Assembly (NCBI GenBank): GCA_026708055.1 | Contig: JAPOVS010000023.1 | Coordinates: 1 to 64,000, forward strand | Length of the DNA: 64,000 bases | Reading direction: 5' to 3' | DNA from: a bacterium | GTDB lineage: Bacteria > Actinomycetota > Acidimicrobiia > Acidimicrobiales > CATQHL01 | Shown: positions 2,508-9,965 of the stretch, piece after piece | Numbering within the stretch: the stretch's first letter is position 1 | Layout of the letters: every line of letters begins with the position of its first letter | Program-made: the position numbers and the translations under genes | Notes under the pieces: generated by a model | What the model was told of the DNA's origin: nothing | The model's input: the letters and a program-made list of their open reading frames with translations, nothing else | The model's database searches: none

Positions 2508-5500
2508 ATGGCCGACTCAGCGACTCGCGCCGCACCGGCGGGGCCGGGCGCCCACAGCGGGTACGTGGCCTTCGACTTGGAGGCGAACGCCGACCGGGCC
2601 GATCCGCCGGCGCATGAGATCATCGAGATCGGGGCCGTGGCGGTGCTCGACGGCCGGGAGGTCGGTCGCTTCGAGACCCTCGTGCGCCCCACCCGCACCC
2701 TACGAGAGACCACCCGGCAGCTCACCGGCCTGGACGACGCAGCACTGGCGGGCGCGGCGAGTCCGGCCGCCGCGCTGGAGAGTTTCTGCGAGTTCGCCGC
2801 CGGTCGGCCGCTGGTGGCCCACAACGGCTTCGGCTACGACTACCCGCTGCTCGACGCCACCGCCGAGCGGACCGGAGTGCGCCTGCCAGCGGTCACCCGG
2901 CTGGACAGCCTGGAGTTGGCGCACCTGGTCTACCCGCGGGCCGCCAAGAGCGCCGGCACCGACATCGACGGACGCCGGCCTCCAAAGGGCCACAGCCTCG
3001 ACGCCCTAGCCAAGTTCCTGCTGGGCACCCGACCCCGAACCACCCACCGGGCCCTGGGCGATGCGCTGCTGCTGCGAGAGGTGCTCACCCGCCTGCTTGC
3101 CGAAATGGGGCGCGACGAGCCCGTGCGACGGCTGCAGCGTTGGGCGCTGGGGGCGACCGGCCACCCGTGGGCCAGCCTGCTGGCCGAGGTGAGCAATCCC
3201 CCGCCGCTGGAGCATGTGATCCCGGCCCCGGCGCCGCCACCGGTGCGTCCGCCAGCCAGGGGAGCGCGCACTTTCGACCCGGTCGCGGTCGGGGCGGCCT
3301 TCGAACGGGGCGGGCGCCTCATGTCCAAGGCACGCGAGCCCCGCGAGGCGCAGATCCAGATGGCGAAGGCGGTTGCCGAGACCCTTCGCGACGGCGGCAG
3401 ACGGCTCATCGAGGCCCCCACCGGCACCGGCAAGACCCTGGCCTACCTGGCGCCAGCCATCGAGTACGCGATCGCCGCCGGAGAGACGGTGATGATCGCC
3501 CCGCACTCCAAGGTGCTCCAAGATCAGATCATGACGACCCTGGAAGAACTGCAGGGCGAGATCGGTCCGTTCGTCTCAGCGGTGGTGAAGGGGGCCGCCA
3601 ACTACATCAGCCTCGAAGCCCTGGCAGGCGAGCTCGACGCCCTGGCAGCGGCCCTCCCGCAGGAGTCGTCGAAGGGGGTCGAGTCGGCGGACCGCCCACT
3701 CGCCGGATCCGCCGGGGCGGGGTCGCCTCACGAGTCGGCGGGCGCGACCGACAACCCGGAATCGGCCGAGACGCCCGCCTTCGAGCCGGGACCGCCCCAC
3801 CCACCGGCCCCTGCGACCGACGCCGACGACCACGCCCTCGGGCTGATGCTGGCGATCATCTGCGGCTGGGTCGCCAAGACGCCGACAGGCGACTGGGACG
3901 ACCTCCGCAGCGGCTCGATCGAGTCAAACCGATCCGTGGCACCGCTCGGTTCCGGGCTCTGGACGCTCGACCCCAACGGACCCGCGACAACCACGAGTGG
4001 CAGTAGCGCCCCCGCACGCCCATCGGTCAATCCCAACCGGGCCGCCCGCCGGGCGCTGCAAGCCCGCCTGCGCACCACCGGCGAGGCCGACTCGTGGGCC
4101 GGCGACTTGGCGCGGCTGGACTTTCTCACACGAGCGCGGGACATGGTGTGCCCGACCCGCGACGGCCCCGCGCCTGCCCACGTCGTCGTCGGGAACCACG
4201 CTCTGATCGTCACCTGGGACGGCTGGCAGGACGGCGCCGAGCGGTTGATCCTGGACGAGGCCCACAACTTCGAGGACGCCGCCACTGACGCTCTCACCAG
4301 CGAGGCGGGCGTTTCCGACGTGGAGGAGTTGGCAAGGCTGGTCTGGAACGGGCGAGGCCGCAGCACCGTGCGCCGGTTGGCCGAGGCCGCCGGCTGGCGC
4401 CTTGCCGAGGAGCCGTTGTCGAGCCTGCGCGAGACCGCCGAGCAGGTGATCGAGACAACCTCGGCGCTCACCGCGCCGCTGGTGGGCTACGTGCGAGGCC
4501 GGACGGCCGCCTCCCCCAGCGACACTTACCCCGCGTCGCTGCGGATCCAGCCCGGGGGCGACACCGGACACCGGGACTATTCGCCGGTGGTGACGTCCGG
4601 CCGGAACCTGGTGGCGGCGTTGCGCCAACTTCGCGCTGCGTTCAACGAGGTCAATCTGCCCGGAGAGCTGAAGCCCCCCTACAAGCGGCGCCGCCTCGAG
4701 GACGAGATAGCGCGGATGGGCCAGGAGGCCAAGCGCCTAGCCGACGTCATCGACCGGGCGCTGTGGGCCGAGGACCCGACCCGCATGGTCTCGGCCTGCG
4801 AGATCGCCCACAGCAACGGCGCTTGGACATGGACGCTGAAGCAGATGCCGCTCTCGGTGGCCGGCAAGCTGCGGGATATCTGGGACAGCCTGAGCGCCCT
4901 GGTGGGCACCTCTGCCACCCTGGCGGTGGGCGGCGACTTCGGGCACATCATGAACTCGTTGGGGCTCGAGGCCACGAACCCTCCGCTGAGGCTGGCCAGC
5001 CCGTTCCCCTGGCTGAGCGAGAACCACCTGCTGCTGCGAACCGACTACCTGCCTGCGCCCCGGGCGCGCCTCATGGAGGAGTTCAAGGGTTCGGCGGCAC
5101 GGGAGATCCCCCGGCTCCTGATCCTCACCGGCGGGCGCGGGCTGGTGCTGATGACCGCCCGAGCCCGATTGGAGTTCGTGCGCGACCACGCCCGGCCGAT
5201 CCTGGAGGCCACCGAGGCCCCGGACGGCCCCAAAGCGGAGGGCATCCCGCTGCTAGCCCAGGGCGACGACTCGGCGGCGGCCCTCGTGGAGCGGATGCGC
5301 ACCGAGAGGGCTGCCAGCCTGCTGGCATTGCGCTCGTTCTGGGAGGGAGTGGACGTGCCCGGCGAGGCGCTCAGCCTGCTGATCATTGAGAAGATCCCCT
5401 TCGACTCGCCCGCCGACCCGCTCACCGCCGCTCGAATGGACGCCTTGGAGTTGGCGGGCCGCGATCCGTTCTCCCGCTACCTGGTGCCGCGGGCGGCGCT

Positions 5501-8114
5501 GCGGTTCGCCCAAGGCGTGGGACGCCTGATACGCACCGAGTCCGATCGGGGAGTCACAGTCGTGCTCGACAGCCGGCTCTGTCGCCCCACCCCCTACCGC
5601 GAGACGATGCTGAAGACCCTGCCGGGGCCGCCGAGCCGCCACACGGCCCGCAGCGGCGACGAGGCCTACCGCGCCGTCGCCGCTCACCTCGGCGACGTGA
5701 GCTATGACGACGCCATGCGGGCCCGGCTGGAGGCCGTACCCGGCGCCGGCGCTTGGAGCGACCTGGCGTCACTGGCACTGACAGACGCCGAGGCCGCAGA
5801 CGCCGCCCTGGTCGCCGAACGGCTGGACGAGGTGCGCCGCCGCTTCGGGTTCGACCGCTGGCGGCCGGGCCAGCTGGAGGTCATGCAGCGCTTCATCGCC
5901 GGCCGGGACACCCTGGCCGTGCTGCCGACCGGCTCGGGCAAGTCGATCACCTTCCAGATCCCGGCGTTGCTCTCCCCCGGTCTGACCCTGGTGATGTCGC
6001 CCCTGACGGCGCTCATGAACGACCAGGTTCAGAACCTGCGCTCCCGAGGGGTCACGCAGGTGCAGACCATCCACAGCGGGGTCGGCCAGTCCGAATGGCG
6101 CGACATCCTGCGGGCCGCCCGCAAGGGCCACTACAAGCTGATCTATGTGAGCCCCGAGCGGCTCTGGTCACAGGAGTTCGTCCGGACGCTGGCCGACCTG
6201 GACGTGCGCCGGGTGGCCATTGACGAGGCGCACTGCATCTCGCAGTGGGGGCACACCTTCCGCCCCGAGTACAAGGCCATCCCCAAGGCGCTGGAGTGGA
6301 TCACCGCGGGCCGGCTGCCGACTCTGGCGGTCACGGCCACCGCCACACCAAAGGTGCGCAGCGAGATCCGCGACCTGCTGCGGTTGCAGGCGGATCCAGC
6401 CGACGACATCGCGCGGTCGCCGGACCGCCCCGAGATCCGCTACTACATCGAGCGCTGCTCCGACCGCGCCGACCGCGACCTGCGAGCAGTGCAGATCGTC
6501 GAGAGCCTCCGACGCCGAGCCGCCATCGTCTACGTGCCCACCCGCCGCGACACCACCCGCCTGGCCGCAACGCTGGCGGTCGCCGGCCACGTCGCCCAGC
6601 CCTACCACGGCGGCATGGAGCAACCCCGCCGCCAGTACATCGAGGACGCATTCCGCCACGGCGAGGTGGATGTCGTCGTGGCCACCAAGGCCTTCGGCAT
6701 GGGCATCGACAAGCCCGACATCGAGCTGGTGGTACACCTCGAGATGCCGCCCACCATCGAGGAGTACGTGCAGGAGACCGGGCGGTTGGTGCGAGGCGCC
6801 ATCGACGGCCACGAACCCGCCATCGGCCACGCTGTGCTGCTGAGCACCCCCCGGGACTGTTCGATCCACCGCCACGTCATCCGCAACGCGGCCCCCGATC
6901 GGGACGAGGTGCAACGAGTCTGGGAGCGACTCCGCCCCGGCAGCAAGGCCTACGACCCCGATGAACTGCTCGAGGGCGACCCGGAACTCGCCGGGGCCGA
7001 CCGGGAAAGGGTGACCCTCGCCCTAGCGCTGCACTACCTGGCCGACGACGGCTGCGTGCGCCGCGGGCTCGACACCCCGTGGCGCGGCAGGGTGACGCTG
7101 CCCGGCTTCGAAAGCGCAGGGCACGCCAGCGCGCCGAACAGCGGCGCCGACGACGGCGACTCCGAGCGGAGCGTCGCCGGACACCCCGCCGCCCGGCGCA
7201 CCGATGCCGCCTACCCTGCAGCAGGGGGCCGCGCCGCAGCGGACGGCGGTTCACGCCACGACGTTGCCGGACTCTCGCCGGAGGCCCGGCGGATACTGGC
7301 GTACGTGGAGGAGCGAATCGCCGCGAGCGACGCCGAGGGCGCCTCGATCACCTACGAGGCCGAGACGTGGAGCGGAGACCTGCACATGACTCCCCAGGTG
7401 TTGGCCGGCGAACTGTTCGAGTTGAGCCGCCGGGACATCTTGGGTGTCGCCGCCTGGCGGTACGCCTGGACGCTGGAGCGCCACCCGGACCGCCAGCCCA
7501 ACTGGCAGGCCGTCTCCGAGCAGGCCGAGCAGCGCAGAGAGGTCGTCACGGAGCAGTCCGACCGGGCCAAGGCCTACGCGTCGCTCACGGCGAAGCGAAC
7601 CCAGCCCCCGAACCGGACGAGATCAGCCAGCCCGCCGCCGAGCGCACGCTGTCGGCGCCAAGTACTGCTCGACCACTTGGAGGGCGCCGGTCGCCGGGAC
7701 CCGGGAGAAGCACAGAACTGCGGTGCCTGCGACGGCTGTGTGGCCCTGGCCCGCCCGTGGGCCGACAGCCCGCTGGACCGCTCGAGCCTCATCGAGGCGC
7801 TGGGCGCCGAGGCAGTCATCCTCAGGCTGGTGGCCGACAACTCCAAGCTCTCCAAACCGTTCTCGCGCCGCAACCTCGTCCGCACCCTGGCCGGCACCGC
7901 CGGCACCGGGGAGCGCGCGCTGCGCAGGTGGCTCGCCGACCACCCCAGCTTCGGCCGCTTGCGCCTGCTCGACGAGGACGGTGTGAACGAGCGCGTCGAT
8001 GCGGCCGTCGAGTCCGGCTACTGCAAAGCCGAACAAGCCGAGGGCCCTTCGGGGACCCACTACGTGTACCTCGAGATCACCGCGGCCGGAAGGGACGCTC
8101 TGGGGGCGCGCTGA
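2508..8114 (+). CDS. Fused DEDDh exonuclease - DinG-like helicase - RecQ-like helicase
   Basis: This 1868-residue protein joins three DNA-processing modules. Residues about 15-200 form a DnaQ-like 3'-5' exonuclease (VAFDLEAN, then AHNGFGYDYPLLD). Residues about 280-1040 form an XPD/DinG-type superfamily 2 helicase with EAPTGTGKT near 302 and DEAHNF near 583. Residues about 1100-1480 form a RecQ helicase with LPTGSGKS near 1139, DEAHCISQWGH near 1238 and QETGRLVRG near 1421. A winged-helix region and a RecQ-type zinc site (CRRQVLLDHLEG then CGACDGC) follow near residue 1715. The usual Fe-S cysteines of DinG are not apparent: the first is replaced in VKGAANYIS and only scattered Cys remain before DEAH. 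An upstream in-frame start at 2427 exists, but the ATG at 2508 directly precedes the conserved domain. The protein likely acts in replication restart or recombination repair. Confidence 0.88.
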   Translation: MADSATRAAPAGPGAHSGYVAFDLEANADRADPPAHEIIEIGAVAVLDGREVGRFETLVRPTRTLRETTRQLTGLDDAALAGAASPAAALESFCEFAAGRPLVAHNGFGYDYPLLDATAERTGVRLPAVTRLDSLELAHLVYPRAAKSAGTDIDGRRPPKGHSLDALAKFLLGTRPRTTHRALGDALLLREVLTRLLAEMGRDEPVRRLQRWALGATGHPWASLLAEVSNPPPLEHVIPAPAPPPVRPPARGARTFDPVAVGAAFERGGRLMSKAREPREAQIQMAKAVAETLRDGGRRLIEAPTGTGKTLAYLAPAIEYAIAAGETVMIAPHSKVLQDQIMTTLEELQGEIGPFVSAVVKGAANYISLEALAGELDALAAALPQESSKGVESADRPLAGSAGAGSPHESAGATDNPESAETPAFEPGPPHPPAPATDADDHALGLMLAIICGWVAKTPTGDWDDLRSGSIESNRSVAPLGSGLWTLDPNGPATTTSGSSAPARPSVNPNRAARRALQARLRTTGEADSWAGDLARLDFLTRARDMVCPTRDGPAPAHVVVGNHALIVTWDGWQDGAERLILDEAHNFEDAATDALTSEAGVSDVEELARLVWNGRGRSTVRRLAEAAGWRLAEEPLSSLRETAEQVIETTSALTAPLVGYVRGRTAASPSDTYPASLRIQPGGDTGHRDYSPVVTSGRNLVAALRQLRAAFNEVNLPGELKPPYKRRRLEDEIARMGQEAKRLADVIDRALWAEDPTRMVSACEIAHSNGAWTWTLKQMPLSVAGKLRDIWDSLSALVGTSATLAVGGDFGHIMNSLGLEATNPPLRLASPFPWLSENHLLLRTDYLPAPRARLMEEFKGSAAREIPRLLILTGGRGLVLMTARARLEFVRDHARPILEATEAPDGPKAEGIPLLAQGDDSAAALVERMRTERAASLLALRSFWEGVDVPGEALSLLIIEKIPFDSPADPLTAARMDALELAGRDPFSRYLVPRAALRFAQGVGRLIRTESDRGVTVVLDSRLCRPTPYRETMLKTLPGPPSRHTARSGDEAYRAVAAHLGDVSYDDAMRARLEAVPGAGAWSDLASLALTDAEAADAALVAERLDEVRRRFGFDRWRPGQLEVMQRFIAGRDTLAVLPTGSGKSITFQIPALLSPGLTLVMSPLTALMNDQVQNLRSRGVTQVQTIHSGVGQSEWRDILRAARKGHYKLIYVSPERLWSQEFVRTLADLDVRRVAIDEAHCISQWGHTFRPEYKAIPKALEWITAGRLPTLAVTATATPKVRSEIRDLLRLQADPADDIARSPDRPEIRYYIERCSDRADRDLRAVQIVESLRRRAAIVYVPTRRDTTRLAATLAVAGHVAQPYHGGMEQPRRQYIEDAFRHGEVDVVVATKAFGMGIDKPDIELVVHLEMPPTIEEYVQETGRLVRGAIDGHEPAIGHAVLLSTPRDCSIHRHVIRNAAPDRDEVQRVWERLRPGSKAYDPDELLEGDPELAGADRERVTLALALHYLADDGCVRRGLDTPWRGRVTLPGFESAGHASAPNSGADDGDSERSVAGHPAARRTDAAYPAAGGRAAADGGSRHDVAGLSPEARRILAYVEERIAASDAEGASITYEAETWSGDLHMTPQVLAGELFELSRRDILGVAAWRYAWTLERHPDRQPNWQAVSEQAEQRREVVTEQSDRAKAYASLTAKRTQPPNRTRSASPPPSARCRRQVLLDHLEGAGRRDPGEAQNCGACDGCVALARPWADSPLDRSSLIEALGAEAVILRLVADNSKLSKPFSRRNLVRTLAGTAGTGERALRRWLADHPSFGRLRLLDEDGVNERVDAAVESGYCKAEQAEGPSGTHYVYLEITAAGRDALGAR

Positions 8115-8183
8115 GGAAGCCGAACACCCTGCCGTAGTGTTACGTGCTGATCATCTGACCGAGACGAAATCCCCTCCCGCACC

Positions 8184-9965
8184 ATGGCGTTCCTGCATCC
8201 TGCGAACATTCCGAGCCGAAACGACGTCCCCGAGCGCCTCAGGAAGGTGGCCAGAGCCTTCCGCGACCTACTGGGCAACGAGGTGACCGTCTGGCTCGAA
8301 CGCACCGGCGACGGGGAGGCGGCTGCCCTGCGCCGAGATCTGGACCCGGCGAGCGCCTCCGCCTCCGACGACTCCGAGCCGTACCTGGTGCTGCTCGCGC
8401 CCGGAACGGGCATTGCGGTCGTCGAGGTACCGGACGTCAGCAGGCGCAACCGCGGCCTGCTTCGCAACCGGAGAATCGAGAGGGATCGGCTGAACCGGTC
8501 AATATCCGAGAGGTCCGGCGAACTGCGCAGGCGCCTCGACGCGACGAATATCGAGCCCGACCGGGCCGTACACATCCTGGCCCTACCCGAGACCTCTCGT
8601 CACGAACTCCCCACGACCGGACTGCGGGCGCTCTGCCGTGAGGACTTCTTCCCCGAAGCACTGCCCGAGCAGCTACGGCGGCTCACGGGAGAGCGGCACC
8701 ACCCGCTCAGCACGCAGCAGGTGACGGCGGCTCGGGTGGCGGTGAAACCGTCGATCCGCATAGGCAAGCCCGCCCAAGACGCCCTTCTGTTCCGACCGCC
8801 CGACGACGAGGCGCGCGTCCGGGCGTTGGACCGCACCCAAGAGCGCCTCGCCGAGCATCTCGGGGCGGGCTACCGGCTGATCCGCGGCGTGGCGGGCAGC
8901 GGCAAGACCCTCGTCCTCACCCACCGTGCGAAGCATCTGGCCAGGTTCTTCCCCGAATGGCGCATCCTGCTGTGCTGCTACAACAAGTCGCTGGCGACGG
9001 CGCTGGAGGACGAAGTCTCCTCGGCCAGCAACGTCTCGGCCATGACCGTCGACCGTCTGGCCGGCAGGCTCCTGAAAGCAGCGGGGCGCAACGCCGACTA
9101 CAGCCCGAATCCCAGCGACGAGGACTTCCAGCGCATCCGCCGGGAGGCCGCCGCGGTTGCTCCGACACTCGCGGCCGAGCACCGCTTCGACGTCGTGCTG
9201 GTGGACGAGGCGCAGGACTTCGGCCCCTCGGGGCTCAATCTGGCGTGGGCCGCCCTGGCGGCAGGCAGGGACAACTTCGTCATCGCCCTCGACAGTGCCC
9301 AGAACGTCTACCGGCGGCGGATGGCCTGGAATCCGCCGGGGTTCACGGCGAGAGGGCGCTCCACCGTGTTGACCAGCAACTATCGCAACACCCGCGAGAT
9401 TCTGGACACCGCCTTGGGCGCACTGGTGGGCATCGGAGACGCCGCGAGCAGGGACCCGGAGTCCGACGAACTCGACGTGCTGGTGCTGCCTTCGGACGCA
9501 ATTCGGACCGGACCGCCGCCACAGCTGTGGACGTGCGCCGACATTGAGGCCGAGGCGGAAGCCGCAGCCAGAGCCGTCGGCGAGTTGCTGGAGGCGGGGA
9601 ACGAGCCCGATCAGATCGTGGTGCTGTCGGGGTGGCCGGAACTGCGGAAGCTGGTCCTGGAGAGAGTTCCCGACAGCACCGATACCAAGAAGAATCCCGC
9701 CGGGGCGGTCCGCAAGCGCGGTGCGGTACGGGTCGCCACCCTGCAATGGGCCAAGGGTTTGGAGTTCCGCTACGTCATCGTGGGCGGCGCCAACCACGTC
9801 TGGGTCCCCGAGGAGGACGACGAGGCCGAGGCGCGGGAGGACCGGCGTCGGCGCCTGCTTTATATGGCCATGACCCGAGCCACCGGGACTCTCACCGTCA
9901 CCTGTTCGGGCGACGGGGTGATGAGTTCGTTCCAACGGTTGCCGAGTTGGGATCCCGGACCTTGA
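8184..9965 (+). CDS. UvrD/Rep-like superfamily 1 helicase with degenerate N-terminal domain
   Basis: This is a 593-residue SF1A-type DNA helicase. Helicase motifs appear in order: Q-motif-like RALDRTQERLAEHL, Walker A GVAGSGKT (about residue 235), Walker B VVLVDEAQDF (about 341), motif III ALDSAQNVYRR, motif IV TSNYRNTREIL, motif V TLQWAKGLEFRYVIV (about 519) and motif VI YMAMTRAT (about 562). The N-terminal 200 residues resemble a NERD-type nuclease layout (YLVLLAPGTGIAVVEV), but I do not see a convincing catalytic set, so that assignment is tentative. It follows the exonuclease-DinG-RecQ gene by 69 bases on the same strand and may be co-transcribed with it. The start at 8184 lacks a clear Shine-Dalgarno sequence. 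Confidence 0.82.
   Translation: MAFLHPANIPSRNDVPERLRKVARAFRDLLGNEVTVWLERTGDGEAAALRRDLDPASASASDDSEPYLVLLAPGTGIAVVEVPDVSRRNRGLLRNRRIERDRLNRSISERSGELRRRLDATNIEPDRAVHILALPETSRHELPTTGLRALCREDFFPEALPEQLRRLTGERHHPLSTQQVTAARVAVKPSIRIGKPAQDALLFRPPDDEARVRALDRTQERLAEHLGAGYRLIRGVAGSGKTLVLTHRAKHLARFFPEWRILLCCYNKSLATALEDEVSSASNVSAMTVDRLAGRLLKAAGRNADYSPNPSDEDFQRIRREAAAVAPTLAAEHRFDVVLVDEAQDFGPSGLNLAWAALAAGRDNFVIALDSAQNVYRRRMAWNPPGFTARGRSTVLTSNYRNTREILDTALGALVGIGDAASRDPESDELDVLVLPSDAIRTGPPPQLWTCADIEAEAEAAARAVGELLEAGNEPDQIVVLSGWPELRKLVLERVPDSTDTKKNPAGAVRKRGAVRVATLQWAKGLEFRYVIVGGANHVWVPEEDDEAEAREDRRRRLLYMAMTRATGTLTVTCSGDGVMSSFQRLPSWDPGP

Follow-up and report, generated by a model that had tools for sequence, protein, structure and literature searches.

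An exonuclease–DinG–RecQ fusion protein without Fe–S cysteines is paired with a UvrD-like helicase in a putative mobile cassette

The 64,000-nucleotide stretch of DNA analyzed here (the window) contains a single uninterrupted gene for an 1868-residue protein in which a DEDDh exonuclease, a DinG-type motor, and a RecQ helicase follow one another in one chain (Table 1). The catalytic motifs are complete, the DinG part has no Fe–S cysteines, the gene is constantly paired with that of a UvrD-like helicase, and the pair behaves as a mobile cassette. With moderate confidence, we read the protein from its sequence as an Exo-DinG with a pseudo-Fe–S (pFeS) region and a C-terminal RecQ, which would form an accessory unit of two genes together with the neighboring UvrD-like helicase; this unit is predicted to unwind and degrade DNA, perhaps foreign or aberrant.

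Table 1. Features of the fusion gene and its partner (positions in the window).
Feature	Position	Strand	Basis or remark
CDS, exonuclease–DinG–RecQ fusion	2508–8114	+	1868 aa; ATG start, alternative GTG start at 2427
DEDDh 3'–5' exonuclease domain, RNase_T, residues 20–190	2565–3077	+	Pfam; D23, E25, D111, H180, D185 invariant in 8/8 aligned fusions
DinG/XPD-type motor region, residues 270–1045	3315–5642	+	Pfam
Walker A (GTGKT) of DinG motor	3423–3437	+	
Cysteine-less (pseudo) Fe–S region, including window-specific low-complexity insertions	3588–4205	+	Alignment, cysteine scan
NYIS, residues 365–368; Ser368 at the first Fe–S cysteine position of canonical DinG	3600–3611	+	Alignment, cysteine scan
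DEAH of DinG motor	4254–4265	+	
Helicase_C_2 of DinG motor, residues 870–1039	5115–5624	+	Pfam
RecQ helicase core (DEAD 1119–1283, Helicase_C 1329–1429)	5862–6794	+	Pfam, NCBIfam
RecQ-type zinc-binding cysteines C1715, C1738, C1741, C1744	7650–7739	+	Invariant in 8/8 aligned fusions
Gap of 69 bases between the co-directional fusion and partner genes	8115–8183	+	
UvrD-like SF1 helicase partner, 593 aa	8184–9965	+	Pfam, conserved adjacency
Partner N-terminal domain (MAFLxPxNxPxR...)	8184–8798	+	No Pfam family; profile co-occurs with the fusion

The frame is open from 2427 (GTG) or 2508 (ATG) to 8114 on the forward strand, with no in-frame stop, and the similarity of relatives to the protein starts near residue 17. 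The GC bias at the third codon position is steady from end to end, and the probability of a frame this long arising from composition alone is about 10^-15. Within this one frame the Pfam modules follow in order, which bears out the original prediction of three modules in a single chain. A scan for promoters and terminators on the forward strand near 2508 gave nothing useful, and single-sequence structure predictions of window sequences (mean pLDDT of 35.3 and 37.8) were set aside. Upstream of the fusion lie two tandem small genes for retropepsin-like aspartyl proteases, at 1430–1825 and 1929–2396 on the reverse strand.

The N-terminal DEDDh exonuclease joined to DinG motor domains, of which a Pfam ResIII match at residues 277–351 represents the ResIII/DinG N-terminal core, is the arrangement of the ExoDinG subgroup of DinG-like proteins. 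NCBIfam models of the DinG type match the fusion with scores below their cut-offs. The C-terminal part resembles the RecQ family in its SF2 core with RecQ-type motifs and in its four zinc cysteines, and it passes the RecQ subfamily model TIGR00614 (318.9 against a cut-off of 219.8). It differs from that family in scoring far below the cut-off of the RecQ equivalog TIGR01389 (371.2 against 640.2) and in having no Pfam match to an HRDC domain at an E-value of 0.001; HRDC is missing from some RecQs. An alignment of eight fusions shows no variation at any of the 22 catalytic and zinc positions listed.

Where canonical members of the DinG family have NYxC, the fusion reads NYIS. The S. aureus Exo-DinG, also devoid of Fe–S, has DYIS at the corresponding position of the alignment. 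Between Walker A and DEAH, the fusion has only cysteines 452 and 548, in non-canonical places and not as a clustered set. The four 4Fe–4S-ligating cysteines that characterize Fe–S XPD/DinG helicases are thus not found, in agreement with the original prediction that they are missing; hidden Fe–S cysteines are ruled out by the alignment and by a cysteine scan. The scan found no clustered Fe–S cysteines in any of the nine parsed fusions of the window clade or the three sister exo-DinGs, and recovered them in the positive controls, namely E. coli DinG, the YoaA-type paralog from the same genome (L002), and 18/18 parsed YoaA rows (7 of the 25 rows failed at the longest-frame pick or the motif search). 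In the truncated copy L097 the scan mis-parsed at the RecQ Walker A, and its DinG stretch was instead read in part from the alignment. The FeS/pFeS region is kept in length, with about 175–275 residues from Walker A to DEAH, and this retention in the absence of the cysteines suggests a region of the pFeS type.

Searches with the DinG part as query, in overlapping samples of which the first three each include the window's genome, identified the fusion in 6 of 41 close relatives, 5 of 247 genomes of the class sample, 2 of 396 of the phylum sample, and 1 of 27 in the class of an outlying match. Ten distinct fusions are known from these searches: that of the window and L095, L096, L097, L098, L099, L111, L112, L113, and L235. 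Nine other genomes thus carry it, seven with an intact gene and two (L097 and L235) with copies cut by contig ends, so that the fusion is not split in most relatives. An assembly or annotation error joining separate genes is extremely improbable: the window's genome (G000) and most of its relatives are drafts in many contigs, but the same fusion recurs in independent assemblies, among them G008 (3 contigs), G019 (2 contigs), and complete Thermus plasmids, in addition to the absence of stops and the steady codon bias noted above. Four WhiB genes suggest an actinobacterial host, this family being present in just one of 14 control genomes (Corynebacterium).

The sole RecQ-less form found is an exo-DinG of family f51, from the same class, which constitutes a separate sister lineage; it has about 1010 residues and no UvrD-like partner, and one copy (L117) is broken. 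A decayed second copy of the exo-DinG portion of the fusion, in pieces and with a stop, is present in one genome (L100; G004:C9, about 72448–73533) about 55 kb from the intact fusion. A scan of genome contigs with the fusion returned 62 loci, whose matches all fall within residues 1074–1548 of the RecQ part and are uninformative on the fusion. A phage origin was rejected, as none of the 79 loci from a viral-contig scan with the fusion alignment contains a fusion. The fusion query is not covered to 80% by any record of an annotated phage, and the 20 matches listed are to DinG or RecQ alone.

The three-module architecture has been known since 2005, when Omelchenko et al. described a T. thermophilus HB27 protein as a unique three-domain fusion of DnaQ, DinG, and RecQ (PMC1274311). 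This protein (TT_RS10770, WP_011174436.1) is encoded on the megaplasmid pTT27, and tblastn searches on plasmids located the same architecture in Thermus, Meiothermus, Allomeiothermus, and Deinococcus actinosclerus, while T. thermophilus HB8 has kept only the exonuclease part. The HB27 protein shares with the window fusion the module order, all catalytic positions, and the RecQ zinc cysteines, at about 28% identity overall. In contrast to the window fusion, all seven Thermaceae/Deinococcus fusions examined in the same cysteine scan have the four Fe–S cysteines.

In the DinG tree, Fe–S-less fusions and exo-DinGs join at 97/94, and this group stands beside the Fe–S-bearing fusions at 98/94, the midpoint root serving for drawing only. 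The tree omits L097, L086, three YoaA rows without a recognized motif VI, and the unparsed rows, and uses a segment of L111 shortened to 420 residues. In the RecQ tree, which includes only every fifth of L003–L064, the fusions all fall on the same side, at a low support of 61/63. In the simplest putative scenario, the modules would have been joined once, with the Fe–S cysteines lost later and RecQ lost in f51.

The UvrD-like gene is a dedicated partner of the fusion, because it is adjacent to it, co-occurs with it across genomes, and has diverged along with it. It is found directly 3' of the fusion in all nine assessable cassettes; the tenth fusion (G525) is broken off by the end of its 3935-base contig and does not permit assessment. 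Two of the partner copies are incomplete, that of L097 being cut by the contig end and that of L112 having a frame that ends early. Among the 41 close relatives, the profile of the partner's N-terminal domain is found in 6/6 genomes with the fusion and 0/35 others. In the class sample (n = 247), whose co-occurrence was put through a Fisher test, it matches 5/5 fusion genomes strongly and 3/242 others more weakly (E-values of 4e-19 to 2e-6). Pairwise divergences of fusion and partner correlate with r = 0.99, a value reached in 2 of 5000 permutations. These data confirm that the two genes belong together in a compact unit, as had been predicted from the window alone. In G043, which has a weak match to the N-terminal domain, a partner-like gene is located beside one for an 863-residue protein with a weak RecQ-like match.

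The helicase part of the partner (residues 174–578) is similar to NERD–UvrD helicases (PADLOC C3a187, 'NERD+UvrD'; E-value of 2e-43). The N-terminal domain sets it apart: none of the eight members has a Pfam NERD match at E-values up to 5, or any Pfam family at a meaningful score. A NERD–UvrD helicase gene (L099:11810–13531) divergently adjoins the fusion of G019, in addition to the usual partner. Giant helicases with a RecQ-like core followed by UvrD in one chain are encoded at G000:C2:2064–7229 (L271) and in G004:C87 (L272:4748–10054); with frames of 1722 and 1769 residues, they echo the pair of RecQ fusion and UvrD-like gene in the window.

When eight loci are compared by blastn, 25 of the 28 pairs are similar in DNA only across the fusion and partner genes. 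The clearest case is L095–L096, with 89% DNA identity over 7170 bases and a loss of all likeness directly before the start of the gene; downstream, the L096 cassette runs to the end of its contig. The other three pairs all belong to family f62. In L111–L112 and L112–L113 the similarity runs past the cassette edge as listed, by at most about 85 bases; L111–L113 has additional sequence in common upstream of the cassette. Since the similarity ends with the two genes or close to their borders, fusion and partner have the look of an accessory cassette that moves horizontally, although no cassette ends, target duplications, or genes for mobilization came to light at this depth of analysis. Next to the cassette, no defense genes stand out in the window clade. 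Among 10 chosen neighbors from six loci, Pfam searches identified a toxin resembling PemK/MazF at L112 and, below threshold, an antitoxin resembling CcdA at L111.

The surroundings of the plasmid-borne relatives are different. Of eight Thermaceae/Deinococcus loci inspected, three (HB27, A. silvanus, and T. oshimai) lie near CRISPR-cas or BrxL-bearing operons, and five (T. parvatiensis, T. aquaticus, T. brockianus, M. taiwanensis, and D. actinosclerus) have no obvious neighbors of this kind. Genes for BrxL, a tubulin-like protein, and a vWA protein form a BREX-like island beside the fusions of T. oshimai pTHEOS01 (L129) and A. silvanus pMESIL01 (L133), the latter also with genes for a DNA methyltransferase and a giant DEAD helicase. 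The position behind the fusion, held by the UvrD-like partner in the window clade, is occupied in the seven Thermaceae plasmids inspected by three other genes. These are conserved (e.g., L120:15637–18535); in two loci scanned, two of them give weak matches of a coiled-coil type, and the third, with about 500 residues, has no Pfam match. A UvrD-like gene is located directly upstream of the fusion in T. oshimai, and one for an 828-residue UvrD-like helicase upstream of it in D. actinosclerus.

E. coli DinG translocates with 5'–3' polarity. Loss of the Fe–S cluster need not mean a dead DinG motor, because the S. aureus Exo-DinG, without Fe–S, is described in a 2025 study as unwinding 5'–3' (PMC12345164); CasDinG also unwinds 5'–3' with a vestigial FeS domain (PMC10450177). 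Alanine changes of the S. aureus MD2 residues K801, F804, F823, R858, and Y864 are reported to abolish unwinding (PMC12345164). These residues align with K962, F965, F988, R1023, and Y1030 of the fusion, which are invariant in the eight-row alignment. The DinG part of the fusion is predicted, if active, to unwind 5'–3'. The two motors may thus have opposite polarity, but the literature on Fe–S-less Exo-DinG is in conflict (PMC12345164 versus PMC12525004). The B. subtilis enzyme is described as having no robust helicase activity and as degrading forks, not unwinding them (PMC12525004), and an earlier report of no helicase activity for the S. aureus protein is recounted in PMC12345164 and PMC11981726; from these accounts, regulation of the nuclease may be all that the DinG motor does. 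We therefore consider it possible, as a tentative alternative, that the DinG half has ceased to be a helicase and serves as an ATP-gated clamp on single-stranded DNA to control the exonuclease, leaving all unwinding to RecQ together with the partner. The absence of Fe–S cysteines throughout the window-clade fusions and sister exo-DinGs, together with the behavior of the B. subtilis protein at forks, would suit such a clamp, but Walker A, DEAH, motif VI, and the DNA-contacting MD2 residues are all invariant, and the unwinding by CasDinG and the S. aureus Exo-DinG argues against it as well. The clamp concerns mechanism and is compatible with a role in either repair or defense.

RecQ and UvrD are classical repair helicases, which counts in favor of the core-type DNA repair that the original prediction proposed, with fusion and partner processing host crosslinks, stalled forks, or R-loops. 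Published functions of Exo-DinGs point in the same direction and weigh against our preferred reading, since the known proteins act in crosslink repair, R-loop removal and translesion synthesis, or rRNA quality control, and not in defense. The S. aureus Exo-DinG, with a role in crosslink repair, is reported to be needed for resistance to mitomycin C and formaldehyde, which requires both of its activities (PMC12345164); that of B. subtilis helps translesion bypass and removes R-loops (PMC12525004), and that of Listeria is described in rRNA quality control. We nevertheless regard a core repair function as somewhat unlikely in view of the patchy occurrence in the close-relative, class, and phylum samples, the unrelated contexts even of same-genus copies with 89% DNA identity, and the presence in G000 of a separate YoaA-type DinG and a separate RecQ–UvrD protein besides the fusion. 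An accessory, possibly defensive unit fits at least as well as a 'repair block', because the two-gene cassette is patchily distributed and sharply bounded in unrelated contexts, and because three of the eight Thermaceae/Deinococcus relatives have CRISPR or BrxL surroundings.

In the accessory unit that we favor, the RecQ motor (3'–5') and the DinG motor (5'–3', if active) would most likely open the duplex. The DEDDh exonuclease would degrade the 3'-ended strand fed to it, and the SF1 partner would load, clear, or extend unwinding. Both the activities and the way in which they would be coordinated are inferred, as is the view that the unit serves to destroy or process aberrant or foreign DNA and not core repair. 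A bolder version, which we hold to be rather unlikely, is a single-chain, Fe–S-independent counterpart of RecBCD-type enzymes: DinG (5'–3') and RecQ (3'–5') would travel on opposite strands in the same direction from a DNA end, the DEDDh domain would destroy the 3'-ended strand, and the SF1 partner would complete a mobile two-gene system against foreign DNA.

The fusion shares the N-terminal DEDDh exonuclease, the DinG motor, and the lack of Fe–S cysteines with the Exo-DinGs of S. aureus and B. subtilis (PMC11981726, PMC12345164, and PMC12525004), and its best sequence match in the PDB (8zef) is on the Exo-DinG side. Unlike the fusion, these proteins, of 897 and 931 residues, have no RecQ part, and the sections of the same three papers used here describe no dedicated UvrD-like partner. 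RecQ is unmentioned in the main text of the 2025 review of DinG-like proteins (PMC11981726), so that the RecQ-bearing branch seems to lie outside the current classification as given there. Searches of open-licence PMC papers, with passages of PMC9122126 and PMC5512222 consulted, turned up no account of a DinG–RecQ fusion in a defense setting. A known PADLOC defense system was rejected as a match: the best 25 of 51 matches are to single modules only (DpdF, PsyrT, typeIV_DinG, and DEDDh).

The cassette joins three separate facts, namely the Fe–S-less Exo-DinGs of Bacilli, the Thermus three-domain fusion of 2005, and a dedicated UvrD-like partner. If it is defensive, it would be a two-gene system without a whole-protein match among the best 25 of 51 matches in PADLOC-DB 2.0.0. 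The need for an Fe–S cluster in the DinG motor is a disputed question, and the Fe–S-bearing proteins of Thermales and the Fe–S-less ones of the window clade, with equal architecture, form a natural pair that would make this need directly testable.
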